This document shows positions 21,406 through 29,167 of a DNA stretch of 42,279 bases, one piece after another; positions within the stretch are counted from its first letter, which is position 1, and every line of letters begins with the position of its first letter. The stretch spans positions 1-42,279 of the forward strand of contig JAIRRI010000193.1 of the NCBI GenBank assembly GCA_031256055.1. The letters are read 5' to 3'. This DNA is from Bacteroidales bacterium (GTDB lineage Bacteria; Bacteroidota; Bacteroidia; Bacteroidales; P3). The translations under genes were made by a program, and so were the position numbers. The notes beneath the pieces were generated by a model. The model worked only from the letters and a program-made list of their open reading frames with translations, had not been told where the DNA came from and searched no databases.

Positions 21406-22470
21406 CTATTCTGTTAAAATCATTCGTTTGGTATCAATCAACTTACCGTCTACAATCAGCGAATACAGATACATCCCCGATTGCAACGACGAGGCGCGCA
21501 CTTCTACGGCATTTTCGCCTTGGGTTGTTGGCAGATTGTAGCATTGCAATTGCTTACCGGTTAGGTTGTAAATGCAAATCTTGGCATTGGTTGCATTTTC
21601 GGCAAGTTGGTAGGTTATTGTTGTTGCGCTGTTGAATGGGTTTGGAATGTTTTGGTGTAAAGCGTGAACAACGTTGGTTGTCGTTTGTTGAGATGAACGC
21701 TTTGGCTCACCAATATCAAAATTTGCAAAATAAGCACCGGTTTGAATGTCGGTTACTTGTTGTTGCAAGTGTTCTATGATTTCGTTTTGATCTTGGATTG
21801 CTTTTGTCAAATATGGAATCAGTCCTGCATAATCTATGCTGAGTATTTCGTCCTCACCAACGGTTGCTACTAAATCAGGAAAAAGTTCTCTCACTTCCTG
21901 CGCAATAAAGCCTACTCTGTTTTGATAGGCCAGATTTGTCGAAACATTTTTACCACTGCCATCTATCACAAAATCATACATCACAGGACGTAGTCTAGAT
22001 ATACGTTCTCTCATCGGAGAAAGTTCGCGAATGCTTGTTTTTAAGTTTGCATCAGAGCTAGCCAATATACCAATATACTGGCCATTTGAATGGTAGTAAG
22101 TCGAAAAAATAACATACATTTGATTGTTTAAAGTGCCGATAGTTGCTCCTCGGGAATTAAGCCCAGTTAGTGCCATAACTGGGGTAAAATTCGGATTACC
22201 AGAAAAAGAAGACATTGTCGTTGGAATAAATTGAAATCCAACATCGAGTGACTGGCCTATAAGATTTACTGCTGCTCTGCCTCTTATGACTGCCTTATTG
22301 TTAATATTAGACATGTTTATTTCAAATCGTGTGTTGATATCGAACAGCGTCGCTGAAGTATTTCCGGCATGAACAGCACCGTTTGGATGAACTTTGATTT
22401 GTGCATTAAGCAGAGAAGTGCAAACACACCAAATGAAGAAAATTGACGGAAAATACCTTTTTGTTTTCAT
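21406..22470 (-). CDS. Peptidase S74 (tail-fibre chaperone) domain protein with T9SS sorting domain
   Basis: 354 aa from the ATG at 22470. Signal peptide about 1-23. The region about 25-135 is a beta-rich passenger. An S74 intramolecular chaperone domain follows: the self-cleavage motif SDANLK (Ser139, Lys144) is in place, then LSPMRERISRLRPVMYDF, NRVGFIAQEVRELFPDLV, LSIDYAGLIPYLTKAI and a coiled coil IIEHLQQQV. Residues about 268-354 are a T9SS type A sorting domain (LHQNIPNPFNSATTITYQL, IYNLTGKQLQ, LQSGMYLYSL). S74 domains trimerise fibres and then cut themselves off. It lies 45 bases after the tricorn-like gene and 10 bases before GH16. The frame is open to 22500, but MKTKRYF at 22470 is a proper signal-peptide start. 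Confidence 0.88.
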   Translation of the reverse strand: MKTKRYFPSIFFIWCVCTSLLNAQIKVHPNGAVHAGNTSATLFDINTRFEINMSNINNKAVIRGRAAVNLIGQSLDVGFQFIPTTMSSFSGNPNFTPVMALTGLNSRGATIGTLNNQMYVIFSTYYHSNGQYIGILASSDANLKTSIRELSPMRERISRLRPVMYDFVIDGSGKNVSTNLAYQNRVGFIAQEVRELFPDLVATVGEDEILSIDYAGLIPYLTKAIQDQNEIIEHLQQQVTDIQTGAYFANFDIGEPKRSSQQTTTNVVHALHQNIPNPFNSATTITYQLAENATNAKICIYNLTGKQLQCYNLPTTQGENAVEVRASSLQSGMYLYSLIVDGKLIDTKRMILTE

Positions 22471-22515
22471 TATTTTTTCCCTTGTACGTATCGGGCGCAA
22501 CTTTTTGTTGGTATT

Positions 22516-25500
22516 TTATTTTTTAGGCTTGTTGTAATCAAAATCTTTCCATGGATCAACGAATTTGTCGGCTTCTTGCAAAAGAAGTTTGACTGCCTCC
22601 TCAACTTGTTGGTCACGGTTATTCCAAAGCGCGTTGGTTTCGTTTCGCACTTTAACATCAGGTTCTAGTTGTACATTTTCCAAAAAATCGCCATTTCTAT
22701 CAATATAACCACCAATTGGAATACCGTAAAACAAGCCGTTTTCAGGCAAATTTTCCCACCAAACACTCGTCATGGTTCCCGGAACGGGCATACCCACAAG
22801 TTTTCCAATTCCCATTTCTCTGTAAACCCAAGGCGTGCCATGTGCATTGGAATAACTGGCTTCGCCTTGCAACATGATGGATGGTTTGAGCCAACGTTTG
22901 GTCGGTTGATCATTGATTTTTTGTCCGCGCGGCACTTGTTCCAAATATTTTGTTCCGCTGAGCAAAACTTCCACATCCTCGTGCAAACGTCCGCCACCAT
23001 TGAAACGCACATCAATCACAACACCTTCTTTATCGTTATAACGACCTAAAATTTCAGAATACACCGTGCGATAACTTGCATCGTTCATGCCTTGAATATG
23101 TGCATAGCCAAGTCTTCCATTAGATAGTTTTTCCACGCGATCGCGTTGATTTTGAACCCAACGGTTGTAAAGCAGAGAAGTTTCGTTGGCAATCGGTCTG
23201 ATTTTTTCGGAATATTCGGTGCTTCCATCTCTGAACGTGAGCGTAGTTTCTGTGCCGATTTGTCCGTTCAACATGGCGAAAAAGTCTGTGTTTTCAAGGA
23301 TTTCGACGCCGTTGATTTTGGTGAGGTAATGTCCGGGTTTGACTTGGGTTCTGGCATTGTCAAAGGGGCTGTTGGCAATTATTTCTTCGATTTTAACACC
23401 TTTTTCGGCTTTCGTTAAATCAAACAATAAGCCTAATTTCGCAGTTGGCACGTTTGTTCCAAATGTTCCGCGGAAGCCTGAACCCGTGTGCGAAGCGTTG
23501 AGTTCGCCCAAATATTCGCTCAACAATTCCGAGAAATCCCAGTAATTATTGATGTATGGCAAGAATTTTTCATAGTCTTTGTAGAAGCCATCCCAATCCA
23601 CACCATGGAGATCCAGGCGATAGAATTTTTCAGCAACCGTGCGCCAAACGTGGTCAAGCATTGCTGCACGATTTGCATAAGGGTCTTGTTCAACCAAGGC
23701 TCTGTAGGTAACATTTTTGCGGGTTTTGGTGTTTTTTACATCCAAGGTAAAGATGGTGCCACCTGCGAAAACCATCAATTTGTCGCCTTTTTCGTCCATT
23801 TCAAGACTGGCGTTTTGCACACCTAATTTTTCTACCAATTTGGTTTCATTGGCTTTGAAATCGCGCATCCAAAGGTCGTAGCCTTTTTCCACGTTCACCA
23901 AATAAAATAATTTTTCGCCATCGGGCGTCAACACAAATCCGCCCAAATCGCTGGAATGAATGGTCATACGCTCAATTCGGTTTTCTATATGTCTCAATTC
24001 AAATTCCAAAGATTTTGATGTTGTATCTTTCCCGCCTGCGAGTTTTTGGCGTTCTTTGTCCAATTCTATATCCTCTTTGCTCATTTTAAATCTGTCGAGC
24101 GCTTCCTGATTGGTAAAAATTCCGAATACGTCATTTTGCGAGCCCCACGAAGCATGAGAACGCATACCAAACCTATCGCTTGCAAACAAAATCACATTGC
24201 CGTTCATGGCAAATTTCGGAGCATTTTCTATGTAGCCGCTATACGTGAGATTGGTGATTTCGCCACCTTGCGCTGACACCAAACCAATATCCACATAAGG
24301 ATGACGAATGGCGCCCATAAATGTCAACACCAACCATTTACTGTCGGGCGACCAAGCGAAGGATTGATCACCGTCGGCATACGACCAATTTCGGCTTCCA
24401 TCGGTAATTTGACGGATTTGTTTTGTATTCACATCAATCGCATGAATTTTTGTGCGATCGCGCAAAAAGGCAATTTCCTTGCCGTTTGGGGAAAATACAG
24501 GTTGAAAATCCTCGTGTTTGCTATCATTGACTAAAATTTCTTCAACAATGTTATCGGAACTGAAAAAATACGGCTCATTTTTTGCCATGTTTTTTGCGAC
24601 ACAAACCACCCAACTGCCATCACGACTTGCAGCATAGGCAAGGCTTCTGCCATCGGGCGACCAACTCAAACTGCGCTCAACTCCTGGAGTGTTGGTAATG
24701 CGTTTGGTAGTTCCAAATTCCACGGAAGTGACGTAAACATCGCCGCGAACTATGAGGGCAACCTCTTTTCCGTTAGGCGAGAACGTTGCTTCTGTTGCGC
24801 CTGTGGTGAGGGTTTGCAAGGTTATCGGATTTTCGTTGTCGCGGAAAATATCGACTTTGACTTGTTTAGGTTGTCCGTCTTTCGGCAATATGTAAAGTTT
24901 TCCATCAAAGGTGTAGCAAAGCGTTTCATTGTCGCTGATGGAAAGAAAACGAACGGGGTGGCGTTTGTAGTCTGTTAGAGTTCTGAAAGGAATCTCGCCT
25001 CCCGTACGAACTCTGTTTTCGAAATCGGCTTTCCAGATATTGAAATTACCATTAAGTTCACTCAAATAATAAACCGTTTTACCATCTTTACTTAATACAG
25101 GATTGCGACTATCTTGCACAAAATTGGTAATTTGTGTAAATTCTTTTGTTCCAAAATCGTAGTGCCAAACATCACGAGCCACCGACGAAGTCTGATGTTT
25201 GCGCCATTCGTTTTCTTGACCTGTGATATCTTCATACACCATGAATTTTCCATCGCTGCTGATGGTTACATTGTTCATCGCATTTGGCAACACCAAAACC
25301 GAACGTCCGCCTTGAGCCGAAACCTTGAACAATTGCGTTGCCCAGCCTGCAGGGAATTGCGCGTAAGACGCAGGATGTTGAATATTTGCCGTGAAATAAA
25401 CCTCTTTGCCATTATGCGAAAAACCTTGCAATCTTTCGTTTGCCGAATTGGTCGTTAATCGCATCGGAGAACCGCCTTCGGAAGGCATAATGAACACATC

Positions 25501-25761
25501 TTGATTGCCGTGGCGATTGGAATTGAAAGCAATTTGTTTGCTGTCGGGCGACCATTTGGGATTGTAGTTGTAAGCAGGATGTGAGGTCAATTGTATGGCT
25601 CGACCACCATCCACACTCACTTTGTAAATGTCGCCTTTATACATAAAAGCGATTTCTTTGCCATCAGGCGAAATGCTCGGATAGCGAATCCAAGACACAT
25701 CGGTTTGCGAAAAGCCCAAATACGAAAGGGCAAGCAGAACGAAAAAGAGGATTTTTTTCAT
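22516..25761 (-). CDS. Tricorn-like S41 protease with beta-propellers and PDZ domain
   Basis: 1081 aa. Signal peptide at 1-18. Repeated PD40/WD40-like blades fill the first 680 or so residues (SPDGKEIAFMY, WSPDSKQIAF, SPNGKEVALI, WSPDGRSLAYA, WSPDSKWLVLT). A helical tricorn C1 region follows (HVWRTVAEKFYRLDLHGVDW). A PDZ domain comes next (about 810-860, PGHYLTKINGVEI), and the S41 core (ARIA-type: RLGYAHIQGM, GVVIDVRFNGGGRL, and QGEASYSNAHG with the probable nucleophile Ser971). Tricorn proteins degrade peptides; with a signal peptide this one should act in the periplasm or outside. It heads a same-strand set with the S74 and GH16 genes and has a promoter at 25784-25791. Confidence 0.93.
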   Translation of the reverse strand: MKKILFFVLLALSYLGFSQTDVSWIRYPSISPDGKEIAFMYKGDIYKVSVDGGRAIQLTSHPAYNYNPKWSPDSKQIAFNSNRHGNQDVFIMPSEGGSPMRLTTNSANERLQGFSHNGKEVYFTANIQHPASYAQFPAGWATQLFKVSAQGGRSVLVLPNAMNNVTISSDGKFMVYEDITGQENEWRKHQTSSVARDVWHYDFGTKEFTQITNFVQDSRNPVLSKDGKTVYYLSELNGNFNIWKADFENRVRTGGEIPFRTLTDYKRHPVRFLSISDNETLCYTFDGKLYILPKDGQPKQVKVDIFRDNENPITLQTLTTGATEATFSPNGKEVALIVRGDVYVTSVEFGTTKRITNTPGVERSLSWSPDGRSLAYAASRDGSWVVCVAKNMAKNEPYFFSSDNIVEEILVNDSKHEDFQPVFSPNGKEIAFLRDRTKIHAIDVNTKQIRQITDGSRNWSYADGDQSFAWSPDSKWLVLTFMGAIRHPYVDIGLVSAQGGEITNLTYSGYIENAPKFAMNGNVILFASDRFGMRSHASWGSQNDVFGIFTNQEALDRFKMSKEDIELDKERQKLAGGKDTTSKSLEFELRHIENRIERMTIHSSDLGGFVLTPDGEKLFYLVNVEKGYDLWMRDFKANETKLVEKLGVQNASLEMDEKGDKLMVFAGGTIFTLDVKNTKTRKNVTYRALVEQDPYANRAAMLDHVWRTVAEKFYRLDLHGVDWDGFYKDYEKFLPYINNYWDFSELLSEYLGELNASHTGSGFRGTFGTNVPTAKLGLLFDLTKAEKGVKIEEIIANSPFDNARTQVKPGHYLTKINGVEILENTDFFAMLNGQIGTETTLTFRDGSTEYSEKIRPIANETSLLYNRWVQNQRDRVEKLSNGRLGYAHIQGMNDASYRTVYSEILGRYNDKEGVVIDVRFNGGGRLHEDVEVLLSGTKYLEQVPRGQKINDQPTKRWLKPSIMLQGEASYSNAHGTPWVYREMGIGKLVGMPVPGTMTSVWWENLPENGLFYGIPIGGYIDRNGDFLENVQLEPDVKVRNETNALWNNRDQQVEEAVKLLLQEADKFVDPWKDFDYNKPKK

Positions 25762-25861: not shown

Positions 25862-26626
25862 TTACCGTCTTTCAAGCCTTGAACTGCCTGTAATATTGCT
25901 ATAACCGATGGTCGGATTGCCATCGTAACGCAATATACTTGAGCCCGATAATGTGGCTGAAAGCGTATTCAATACGGTGAATTCGGCCTTGCTCGCACCC
26001 GAAAGTTTGGCATCCAAATCATCGCAAACCATGCCGAAGCCCGATGCTCGGGAAGAACCCGACAAAACTAAGTCAAGCGTTTTGCACTGCCCTTCCAATT
26101 CCATTTTCGACGCACCACTAAGCACGGCAGAAATATGATTGGCTTCAATTCTTCCTCCGTTGCGAAGGCGAAAGGTTGATGCACTTCTCAAATCAATTCT
26201 CAAATCATCGCTAATCACGACATCTTCAATGTAAGCCGTACTTGATCCGCCAAGACTTATTAGTTCTAAATTTTTCACGGTTAAAGAAATCGTAAGATTG
26301 GGTTTACGATGCATAAATGATACATCGTCGTAGCGAAGACTTATGGTATATTTCATTTTTTCGGAAGATCCTTGTCCCAAACTACTCCAAACGATATGTG
26401 GATATACATTGTCGTTCACAGTTATGGTTATTGAATCTTCCGCATTTTCGTCTTCCGAAATGTAAATATACAGATCGCAGTCCATATCAAAAAGGTTTAA
26501 TCCTGTTATGTTCGGATATGTAAACGTTTGAGTAACTAGCATATCCGAAGGGTGAATGCGTTCGTGTTTGTTGCACGATGTGAGTAGGTAAATTAGGGCT
26601 ATGGCAATATAAGTTATATTTTTCAT
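25862..26626 (-). CDS. GIN-domain (DUF2807) lipoprotein
   Basis: 254 aa. A lipoprotein signal ends IYLLTSC, so Cys18 would be lipidated. Residues about 30-110 form a beta-sandwich. The rest is the GIN-type right-handed beta-helix with short repeats built on G-S/A-S: LGGSSTAYIEDV, LRSASTFRLRN, LSGASKMELEG, LSGSSRASG, LSGASKAEFTV, LSGSSILRYDG, ITGSSRLERR. The domain is common in Bacteroidota envelope proteins and is called a putative adhesin head; its ligand is unknown. It lies 24 bases after the repeat-rich outer-membrane protein and is the last gene of the sigma-factor locus. Confidence 0.88.
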   Translation of the reverse strand: MKNITYIAIALIYLLTSCNKHERIHPSDMLVTQTFTYPNITGLNLFDMDCDLYIYISEDENAEDSITITVNDNVYPHIVWSSLGQGSSEKMKYTISLRYDDVSFMHRKPNLTISLTVKNLELISLGGSSTAYIEDVVISDDLRIDLRSASTFRLRNGGRIEANHISAVLSGASKMELEGQCKTLDLVLSGSSRASGFGMVCDDLDAKLSGASKAEFTVLNTLSATLSGSSILRYDGNPTIGYSNITGSSRLERR

Positions 26627-26650
26627 GATGTTAAATTTTTAATTTTTGAT

Positions 26651-28120
26651 TTATAATTTTATGGATAGTCCAACGTCTAAACTCATATCAAACCCAAAGC
26701 GATTTTGCAAGGTCCACGTTTTCCAGTTGCTATTTAATGGAGTGGGTCTTTTATATCTCCACATGTTTAAACTCGGCACAATTTTTATTCCGATTTTATT
26801 GCCCCAATAATAAACCAAACCGCTACTTAAAGTCGTCCAGTTATCACTACCAAATCGGTGTCGAAATTGCTCGCTGAAAATTGGCGAAGCATCTGAAAAA
26901 ATAGAAGAACTACGATATAACGAGGTTTGTAAGTGCAAATTATTCCACAATTGTGTGTTGTTTCCAACACCGAGTCGAAAATCCATAGTAAATGTTTTGT
27001 TGCTAACAAAAGCTACATCAATATCCGTTCCAATAGCCATTAGACCATGAAGTTTTCGACCTCCGAGACGATAACTCAAAAACGTTGTGTGGTAAGTTGA
27101 CTGAATTACTTCCAATTCATGAAAGCGGTCATGTTTCAGAAAATTAAACAAACCGATGGATACCCCTTTTTCAATCGAATCCACTTTGTTGATGAGTCCG
27201 ATTTGCACGCCATTCAAGGTTTTCGTTTCGTTATATAAACCAATTTGAATGCCTCGAACGCGATCCGCACGGTTGTAAATTCCAGCCCATTGCATACCTT
27301 CAATTGTTGTGGCTTCGTTTGCAATACCGCTCGATTGAATGCCGATCAGCGTGTCTGCAACGTTATAAATTCCGCTCCATTGTATACCTTCAACTTTCTC
27401 GGCAACATTCGCAATACCGCTTGTTTGAATGCCTCGAATATCGCCGGAATGGTTATAAATTCCGGCAAATTGAATACCTTTCACATCTTTGGTGAAATTG
27501 CAAATTCCACCAAATTGAATGCCCTCAACCTGTTCGGTAAGATTCATAATTCCGCCAAATTGAACACCTCGCATCGGACCACTCACTTGATTATAAATTC
27601 CACCAAATTGAACGCCGTTAACTCCGCCAACCGCGCCCGTTAGCGCACTAAACGCCAAATTGAAAACATAATCTTCGGAATTCACGCCAAAAAGTCCAGC
27701 AGGATACGCAAAACTCAGATAAATTGGCGACGTTTGTTTGGGTGTGGACACGCTATCAATTTCGACGATTTGCGTGACAACGGTGTCCTTGATAATGATG
27801 GTTTCCAGTGGTTGTGCCATACTCGGCACAATGCCTGAAACTGCTGCCATTGTACCAACTCCAATGTTTCGAATAAGTCGGTTGGCTGATGTTCTTAAAT
27901 TTCTCATAGTAGATGATTGTTTTGGTTCTTCATCTATAATGATGCTATCTTTGAAAATGGTTGCAGTTGGTTCTTCAAAAAAAATTGTTGGCGCAGGTGC
28001 TGGGCGTTTAACCGATATGCGAATGGTATCGTAAATATAAATCGTGTCGCGTGTGGCTTGCGAAAAAAGGCTTGTTCCGATGAAAAGCCAGATGATGGTC
28101 AAAACATATTTAGTCTTCAT
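26651..28120 (-). CDS. Outer-membrane protein with LA_2272-like GIQxxGIxN repeats
   Basis: 489 aa from the ATG at 28120. Signal peptide about 1-21 (LFIGTSLFSQ). A periplasmic stretch rich in DTI/DTV words follows (about 22-145: RDTIYIYDTIRIS, IIIKDTVVTQIVEID), with a second hydrophobic piece (GVGTMAAVSGIVPSMAQ). About ten copies of a 15-residue unit G(I/V)Q(F/W)xGIxN then cover residues about 160-310, resembling surface repeats of the LA_2272 type. The last 150 residues alternate in beta-strand fashion and end ...DVGLSIKL, suggesting a membrane barrel. Function unknown. Its ATG overlaps the last 11 bases of the sigma factor gene, so translation is probably coupled. An ATG at 28132 is an alternative start. 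Confidence 0.75.
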   Translation of the reverse strand: MKTKYVLTIIWLFIGTSLFSQATRDTIYIYDTIRISVKRPAPAPTIFFEEPTATIFKDSIIIDEEPKQSSTMRNLRTSANRLIRNIGVGTMAAVSGIVPSMAQPLETIIIKDTVVTQIVEIDSVSTPKQTSPIYLSFAYPAGLFGVNSEDYVFNLAFSALTGAVGGVNGVQFGGIYNQVSGPMRGVQFGGIMNLTEQVEGIQFGGICNFTKDVKGIQFAGIYNHSGDIRGIQTSGIANVAEKVEGIQWSGIYNVADTLIGIQSSGIANEATTIEGMQWAGIYNRADRVRGIQIGLYNETKTLNGVQIGLINKVDSIEKGVSIGLFNFLKHDRFHELEVIQSTYHTTFLSYRLGGRKLHGLMAIGTDIDVAFVSNKTFTMDFRLGVGNNTQLWNNLHLQTSLYRSSSIFSDASPIFSEQFRHRFGSDNWTTLSSGLVYYWGNKIGIKIVPSLNMWRYKRPTPLNSNWKTWTLQNRFGFDMSLDVGLSIKL

Positions 28121-29105
28121 AAATGGTATCAATGATTACAGTCGTTTTTTTGATGATCAATGGAGGTTCTTCCTCAATAACTTCAGGAGTTTCTTCAATA
28201 ATTTTTTGATGAACAGGCTTTATAATTTGTAGTTGCAAATCTGTCGAATCTTCAAACCAGAAAAGCGTTTCGGGAATTTCATATTCAATCGTCGTTTGAA
28301 TATCCGATGAAATTTTTTGCGTATTTTCGTTGGCTTGATACGCGAGTGCTCCAACCACTATCGCGCCGCCACCAACAGCGGTGGCAATACCTGCCACAAC
28401 GCCCGTCGAAAGTCCAATGGAAACCGTCGAACTCGCCAACTCAACGCCCACAGGTATGGGTGGCATAGGCAAGGTAAAATTCGCAAATGTTTCACAATAC
28501 AGCGTGTCGATAGGGCTTGCCTTGGCAAACAACGCTGAAAACCATGCGAAAATAAAGAGGGATTTTTTTCGATGTTTTTTCATATCTAAGGCTTTTTGAT
28601 AAAGGAGGTCTTGTAATTTTTTTCGAGCACGGTTCAGATGAGATTTGGATGTGCCTTCCGAAATGCTCAACTGTTGGGCAATATCTTTGTGTGAATAACC
28701 GTCCACAACGTAAAGATAGAACACAACGCGATGATGTTCAGGCAGTAAATTCGCCGTTTCCAACAAATCATCCTGCGAAAATTCGGCTTGTTGAATGATT
28801 TGAAATACGGTTGTTTCATCGGTTTGCAGGGTTTCATAAGGCATGGCTTCGATGCGATCATCCAATCCCGAAAATATCGGATTTTTGGCACGAAGGTACA
28901 TCAACGACTCGTTCACGACAATTCGGCGCAACCAACCCTCAAAAGCGCCTTTCCCTTTAAACGTTTCGGCTTTTTGAATAGCCGTTACAAAGGCATTTTG
29001 AACCATATCCTCAGCCTGCCTACGGTCTTTTACGTACCGATAAGCCACTCCGAGCAAGCGTCCGGCTTCTTGCTCATAAACACGTGTCCATTGGATTTTT
29101 TGCAT
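28110..29105 (-). CDS. ECF sigma factor with a membrane-spanning C-terminal extension
   Basis: 331 aa, about twice the usual ECF length. Residues 1-70 match sigma region 2 (YRYVKDRRQAEDMVQNAFV, FEGWLRRIVVNESLMYLR). Residues 110-172 match region 4 (LLPEHHRVVFYLYVVDGYSH, IAQQLSISEGTSKSHLNRAR). A typical ECF factor would end near residue 173. Here the frame continues: KKHRKKSLFIFAWFSALFAK (176-195) looks like a Sec signal or anchor with an AKA cleavage-like site. A Gly-rich hydrophobic stretch follows (about 226-256), and then an acidic tail (EETPEVIEEEPP) ending DTIYED. Met175 could also start a separate exported protein. The tail's DTI words resemble the next gene's N-terminus. Promoter at 29168-29175. 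Confidence 0.88.
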   Translation of the reverse strand: MQKIQWTRVYEQEAGRLLGVAYRYVKDRRQAEDMVQNAFVTAIQKAETFKGKGAFEGWLRRIVVNESLMYLRAKNPIFSGLDDRIEAMPYETLQTDETTVFQIIQQAEFSQDDLLETANLLPEHHRVVFYLYVVDGYSHKDIAQQLSISEGTSKSHLNRARKKLQDLLYQKALDMKKHRKKSLFIFAWFSALFAKASPIDTLYCETFANFTLPMPPIPVGVELASSTVSIGLSTGVVAGIATAVGGGAIVVGALAYQANENTQKISSDIQTTIEYEIPETLFWFEDSTDLQLQIIKPVHQKIIEETPEVIEEEPPLIIKKTTVIIDTIYED

Positions 29106-29167
29106 ATGCTTGTATCTTTATGATGCGAAAATTTGAAAAGGTTGCAGTTTTGGGTGAATTTTTTTTG

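Follow-up and report, generated by a model that had tools for sequence, protein, structure and literature searches.

To the question of how Bacteroidota monitor their outer membrane and inform the cytoplasm of its state, the Dma proteins provide a recent and partial answer. The locus described here raises the question of whether an ECF sigma factor can carry its own anti-sigma factor while the outer-membrane part of the system is left to a neighboring gene. It lies within a window of 42,279 nucleotides, by which we mean the whole stretch of DNA analysed, and which is one contig of a 2.1 Mb Bacteroidales genome (assembly 91% complete). A first-pass annotation had proposed that the sigma factor is a one-protein sigma/anti-sigma, and this idea has gained weight from 16 fused homologues in eight families of the order, from an anti-sigma-like motif and a membrane helix in the tail, and from a self-directed promoter. 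The argument refers to the following features.

29120..29146, minus strand: P1, an ECF-type promoter motif (TGCAACC-N13-GCATCAT) upstream of the fused sigma gene
28110-29105, minus strand: fused sigma open reading frame, 331 aa, no internal stops
28590..29105, minus strand: ECF sigma domain, residues 1-172 (regions 2 and 4), supported by Pfam and the sigma tree
28110..28589, minus strand: fused tail, residues 173-331, stop codon included
28434..28511, minus strand: anti-sigma-like motif, residues about 199-224 (IDTLYCETFANFTLPMPPIPVGVE)
28338..28421, minus strand: predicted single membrane helix, residues about 229-256
28113..28160, minus strand: putative C-terminal periplasmic strand, residues 316-331 (LIIKKTTVIIDTIYED)
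26651..28120, minus strand: exported LA_2272-repeat protein, 489 aa, probable outer-membrane partner
27908..28120, minus strand: partner N-terminal region, residues 1-71, with signal peptide 1 and DT strands (RDTIYIYDTIRISVKRP, KDSIIIDE)
27939..27965, minus strand, same orientation as P1: P2, a second copy of the P1 motif within the partner coding sequence
27905..27907, minus strand: internal in-frame ATG (partner Met72), followed by signal-peptide-like segment 2 (MRNLRTSANRLIRNIGVGTMAAVSGIVPSMAQ)
25862..26626, minus strand: DUF2807 (head-GIN) lipoprotein, the third gene

The sigma factor is complete by about residue 173, as the annotation had it, which is evident from above-cut-off Pfam matches to region 2 (residues 10-74; PF04542, 4.7e-17) and region 4 (residues 113-164; PF08281, 4.5e-16); region 3 is absent, as in ECF sigma factors. 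Its reading frame runs on from this domain for another 159 residues without a stop. In comparison with an orthologue of 92% identity, dN/dS is 0.06 for the sigma part, 0.16 for the tail and 0.08 for residues 173-260. Because the ratio is low both in the tail and across the junction, the tail is, to judge from these substitutions, real coding sequence under purifying selection, junction included. The fused protein is intact in four species of the genus (331, 331, 342 and 359 aa), the other three sharing 92, 53 and 49% identity with the protein of the window and having the same next gene each time. A profile built from the tail only, applied in two rounds of which the second added more members, detected 12 further fusions in seven other families of the order. 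Such retention, in four congeneric species and 12 additional genomes, shows that the fusion is no error. The tail profile returned no further clear fused members from 296 genomes of the phylum, only four weak matches, and a search of plasmids yielded matches to the sigma domain only.

In a tree of sigma domains, all 16 fusions fall into one clade (support 97/98), which also includes the sigma factor of a split system (genome G206) and a long-branch sequence (L128). Homologues split into two genes, which the annotation had regarded as evidence against its proposal, were indeed found (L202 in G206 and L203 in G048), each consisting of a sigma factor and a separate transmembrane protein that likewise ends in DT words. 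However, they are relatives of a clade in which the fusion is conserved, and thus account for where the tail came from without refuting the fusion.

What the tail contains is consistent with an anti-sigma function. The annotation had pointed to two hydrophobic segments. The one at residues 226-256 holds a credible helix (residues 236-254; mean KD 2.1), and a helix of this kind is present in 16 of 16 fused proteins, so that the protein is an ECF sigma factor with an in-frame, helix-bearing regulatory extension. The other, described as signal-like (residues 176-195), is marginal (KD 1.2) and ranges in hydrophobicity from 0.2 to 1.55 across the 16 homologues; therefore, it is probably not a second helix. 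The order of elements in the 16 tails is constant: a basic patch, a short hydrophobic stretch, the motif YIDxLxxxxLxxLxVPP, the helix, a linker of ~76-121 residues (longer in G155) and an ending of the form hhKKxhhxxxxVhxDTh. The tail of the window is acidic after the helix and ends 75 residues past it, closing with a KK..V..DTI strand.

When the 16 fused tails were compared by hhalign with the N-termini of separate anti-sigma proteins, a match with a probability of 87% (E 4e-6) was obtained, versus 0.8% for a reversed control. The separate proteins matched in this way sit beside the nearest relatives of the sigma factor, and several end in an outer-membrane barrel. This homology is detectable at the level of the family: in the genus tails alone the motif is too divergent (hhalign probability 1%), and a genus-only tail profile gave no significant match to separate anti-sigmas until relatives were added, meaning that the assignment for the genus runs via relatives in other families. 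Because of the match to separate anti-sigmas, some of them barrel-ended, and the existence of split relatives, we favor reading the tail as a fused anti-sigma factor whose barrel was lost or never present, comprising the motif, a single membrane helix, a linker in the periplasm and a DT strand at the C-terminus. The annotation was correct that the operon has no separate anti-sigma gene, but none is missing, since the tail itself holds an anti-sigma-like motif. Structure prediction lends this reading no support, as AlphaFold models built from three sequences reached a pLDDT of 35 and 38 for the sigma-tail protein and the partner, too low to be usable.

The next gene encodes the candidate for the outer-membrane half. 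It starts with an ATG at 28120 and overlaps the sigma gene by the 11 bases (28110-28120) noted earlier, passes the cut-off for LA_2272-repeat proteins (NF047436, 2.1e-11) and carries 10 GxQx[AGS] repeats, in agreement with the estimate of about ten. The GIN lipoprotein gene follows after 24 bases, as first described, and is confirmed by its DUF2807 domain (PF10988, 4.5e-24). The order of sigma fusion, LA_2272 partner and DUF2807 lipoprotein is kept in the genus, and an LA_2272-type partner also follows in G523 and G457; partners in G549 and G067 have OMP_b-brl-type matches instead. An internal hydrophobic segment of the long partner is difficult to square with simple export. Within the repeat stretch (27240-27640), the repeat codons give rise to long open frames on the other strand (27245-27643, plus). 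The operon adjoins, at 22516-25761, a gene for a Tricorn-type protease and, at 21406-22500, one for a T9SS-sorted protein that carries an S74 chaperone domain. In the fused-sigma operons at L166, L194, L197, L199 and L200, the third gene encodes no GIN lipoprotein but a secreted protein that shows PKD-like and T9SS-like features.

The annotation had taken DTI/DTV words shared by the tail and the partner as a hint of contact, and these have proven to be a paired feature with strong statistics. A DT[IVL] word lies in the last 60 residues of 15 of the 16 tails (11/275 background ORFs), and at least three such words lie in the N-terminal region of 14 of 15 partners (0/275 clean background ORFs), where they form several strands of the type DTVYIYDTI. 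These counts are not independent because the 16 systems are related, yet the DT region stays while partner barrels differ. The only fusion without a DT end is that of G155, which neighbors a DUF2807 gene and no DT partner; this joint loss is the best support for the putative contact. The G155 protein (L167 5581-7002, minus) has a long C-terminal WG-repeat-like domain and, with its DUF2807 neighbor, represents a different sensor on the same base.

Two promoter motifs point to autoregulation of the operon by this sigma factor. P1 is located 41 bp upstream of the sigma start in the window, and its strict form is found 40-48 nt upstream of 10 of the 16 fused genes, rising to ~14 of 16 with variants and corrected starts; the background rate is 8/423, and none of 33 related sigma genes with a separate anti-sigma has the motif. 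P2 lies 31 bp before the internal ATG in the window. If the spacing is held fixed, each of four genomes has P1 and P2 as its sole exact matches, and looser spacing adds one stray match in G000 and one in G002; a pattern search allowing two mismatches gives mostly noise, at control level. P2 occurs in the eight partner genes that have the internal signal-peptide-like segment, and in all eight an in-frame ATG and this segment come 28-43 bp after the -10 element. It is absent from partners without an internal signal peptide (G549, G167, G180, G067, G502 and G120) and also from G263. In our reading, the outer-membrane gene was originally transcribed from P2, which was retained when the DT region was placed ahead of it. 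Wherever both P1 and P2 can be read, the two match, being TGCAACC/TGCAACC in the genus, TGCCACC/TGCCACC in G523 and G561, and TGTAACC..CGTC/TGTAACC..CGTC in G252, although this matching rests on four lineages and 2 of 24 permutations match equally. A P1-like site, TGC[AC]ACC-N13-GCATCTT, precedes the same TonB-receptor-like gene, with a carboxypeptidase-regulatory start, in two species (L232, G000:C6:12328-12354, minus; L226, G001:C6:37694-37720, plus). This gene is possibly a further target of the sigma factor, and the site may also be a housekeeping promoter.

Other readings of these data must be weighed. Met175 might begin a separate exported protein, as the annotation had allowed, in which case the sigma factor would end near residue 173 and the fusion would reflect a lost stop codon or an assembly error. 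Relatives in the order do usually have a sigma factor of ~185 aa followed by a separate transmembrane anti-sigma. However, the intact fusions of the genus and of the 12 other genomes stand in differing gene contexts, most fused homologues outside the genus lack a Met at this position, and purifying selection spans the junction, which together make a separate protein very improbable. Less credible still is signaling of the iron or glycan type, through FecI/FecR and an STN-bearing receptor at the cell surface. Such a system would be in keeping with other LA_2272 proteins of the order, which follow sigma-FecR pairs and have a CarboxypepD_reg-like domain, but Pfam/NCBIfam scans found neither a FecR match in the tail nor a CarboxypepD_reg match or plug domain in the partner, and FecR-linked sigma factors form their own clade (100/100), distant from the fused one. 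The sigma-FecR operons, to which a search of the order for LA_2272 proteins first led, are a different system.

The remaining alternatives accept the fusion and concern its outer parts. The DT words could be shared beta-strand linkers of periplasmic proteins, with tail and partner each attached to a different ligand, for instance peptidoglycan or a common scaffold, and the partner being a regulated target rather than the lock; the words could then be general adhesion words of the periplasm instead of marking a specific contact. This possibility deserves attention because DT words are simple and because partner barrels differ by lineage (LA_2272, OMP_b-brl), so that no barrel surface is conserved. 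We nevertheless hold it to be less likely than not, given that both features occur together in 14 of 15 systems, are jointly lost in G155 and are rare elsewhere, and that Dma-type anti-sigmas made as a single chain, for which a separate partner is unnecessary, carry no DT at their C-termini. It also seems unlikely that P2 is a by-product of a conserved partner peptide (ATIxxxSII) with no promoter role. The site is within coding sequence, in one reading frame, and the peptide is fairly conserved. But the peptide of G252 differs (VTFLENRVI) exactly so that the DNA matches its own P1, and because this match alters the encoded amino acids, the constraint acts on DNA; the GCA/GCC change leaves the peptide of G523 and G561 unaltered and likewise matches their P1. 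Furthermore, the downstream ATG and signal-peptide-like segment are present in every P2 gene, and within the genus 14 of 14 P2 bases are kept, versus 26% of third positions, a score reached by 3 of 1485 windows.

Starting from what the sequences themselves display, namely the fusion, the conserved motif and helix, the DT pairing statistics and the P1/P2 motifs with their matching variants, we infer that sigma and anti-sigma are united in one protein and that a second protein supplies the outer-membrane half; the system would be a split relative of Dma3 governed by a P1/P2 circuit, and we consider this model probable. The sigma domain and the anti-sigma-like motif (about 199-224) would reside in the cytoplasm, one helix (about 229-256) would span the inner membrane, and the 75-residue acidic tail with its C-terminal KKTTVIIDTIYED strand would extend into the periplasm. 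There, RDTIYIYDTI strands of the partner may dock with the tail and keep the sigma factor inactive, such that the tail and partner would jointly do the job of a single Dma chain in other Bacteroidota. At rest, basal expression would supply membrane-held sigma factor and DT-bearing partner. A partner that is disturbed, lost or misassembled would be the signal, exposing the tail to proteases, after which a site 2 cut, probably by RseP, would free the sigma domain. An M50 protease (site-2, RseP-type) is present in the other four genus genomes; the window's own assembly, which is 91% complete, yielded none. Freed sigma factor is expected to act at P1, for its own operon, and at P2, nested in the partner gene, from which a short partner that begins at the internal signal peptide and has no DT region might be made along with the GIN lipoprotein. 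More tentatively, and with somewhat less than even confidence, we suggest a nested two-part trans-envelope switch, in which the sigma factor bears the membrane lock, the partner bears the key strands and P2 yields a partner without the key, so that activation would turn the partner from a holding into a non-holding form. The separate outer-membrane half, short paired motifs and nested promoter mean that parts can be swapped, mutated and tested with reporters independently.

Known systems share portions of this architecture. Among Bacteroidales, a recurring operon type with sigma, FecR and a CarboxypepD_reg-type LA_2272 protein was observed at L084, L096, L099, L100, L101, L103, L107, L115 and L117. 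These operons (L084, L100, L107 and others) resemble the window in having a sigma-linked LA_2272 protein, sometimes with DUF2807 downstream (L099), and differ in their separate FecR anti-sigma and sigma clade. Sigma factors with a C-terminal, membrane-bound anti-sigma extension are known as IutY (ECF243), which is cut by Prc and RseP, and as the fused proteins of ECF48/52/53, for which proteolysis is proposed rather than shown (PMC8999054). IutY differs in serving a TonB-receptor iron system, and ECF52/53 in being actinobacterial with zinc-finger domains (PMC8999054); shared tail sequence was looked for by Pfam/NCBIfam scans.

The closest likeness is to the dual membrane-spanning anti-sigma (Dma) family, which has a short N-terminal anti-sigma motif, a transmembrane helix, a periplasmic tether and a barrel of its own (PMC13088901). 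The window's nearest sigma relatives sit beside Dma1/Dma2-like proteins. Dma1 and Dma2, which act with Das sigmas (ECF21 type), share the motif, helix and tether with the tail, but their anti-sigma is a gene of its own with its own barrel, whereas that of the window is fused to the sigma factor and barrel-less (PMC13088901). The motif followed by a helix is found here within the fusion, and the chain contains no C-terminal barrel, for which the next gene is the candidate. Because the barrel is outside the chain, the system is not a Dma member, though it would work like Dma3 or IutY. Dma3 of Bacteroides thetaiotaomicron similarly has an N-terminal sigma domain, on a chain that spans the membrane and is joined to an outer-membrane barrel (PMC13088901); the chain of the window instead stops in the periplasm and leaves the outer-membrane part to a separate gene with DT strands. 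Dma3-like single proteins are also encoded in another genus of the window's family (L129 2020-3501, minus, in G008; L125 1852-3555, minus, in G029), with a sigma domain, a membrane helix directly after region 4, a long linker and a barrel-like end. Their position on a separate branch of the sigma tree, outside the fused clade, suggests that they arose independently, and thus that at least two separate sigma/anti-sigma fusions exist within one bacterial order.
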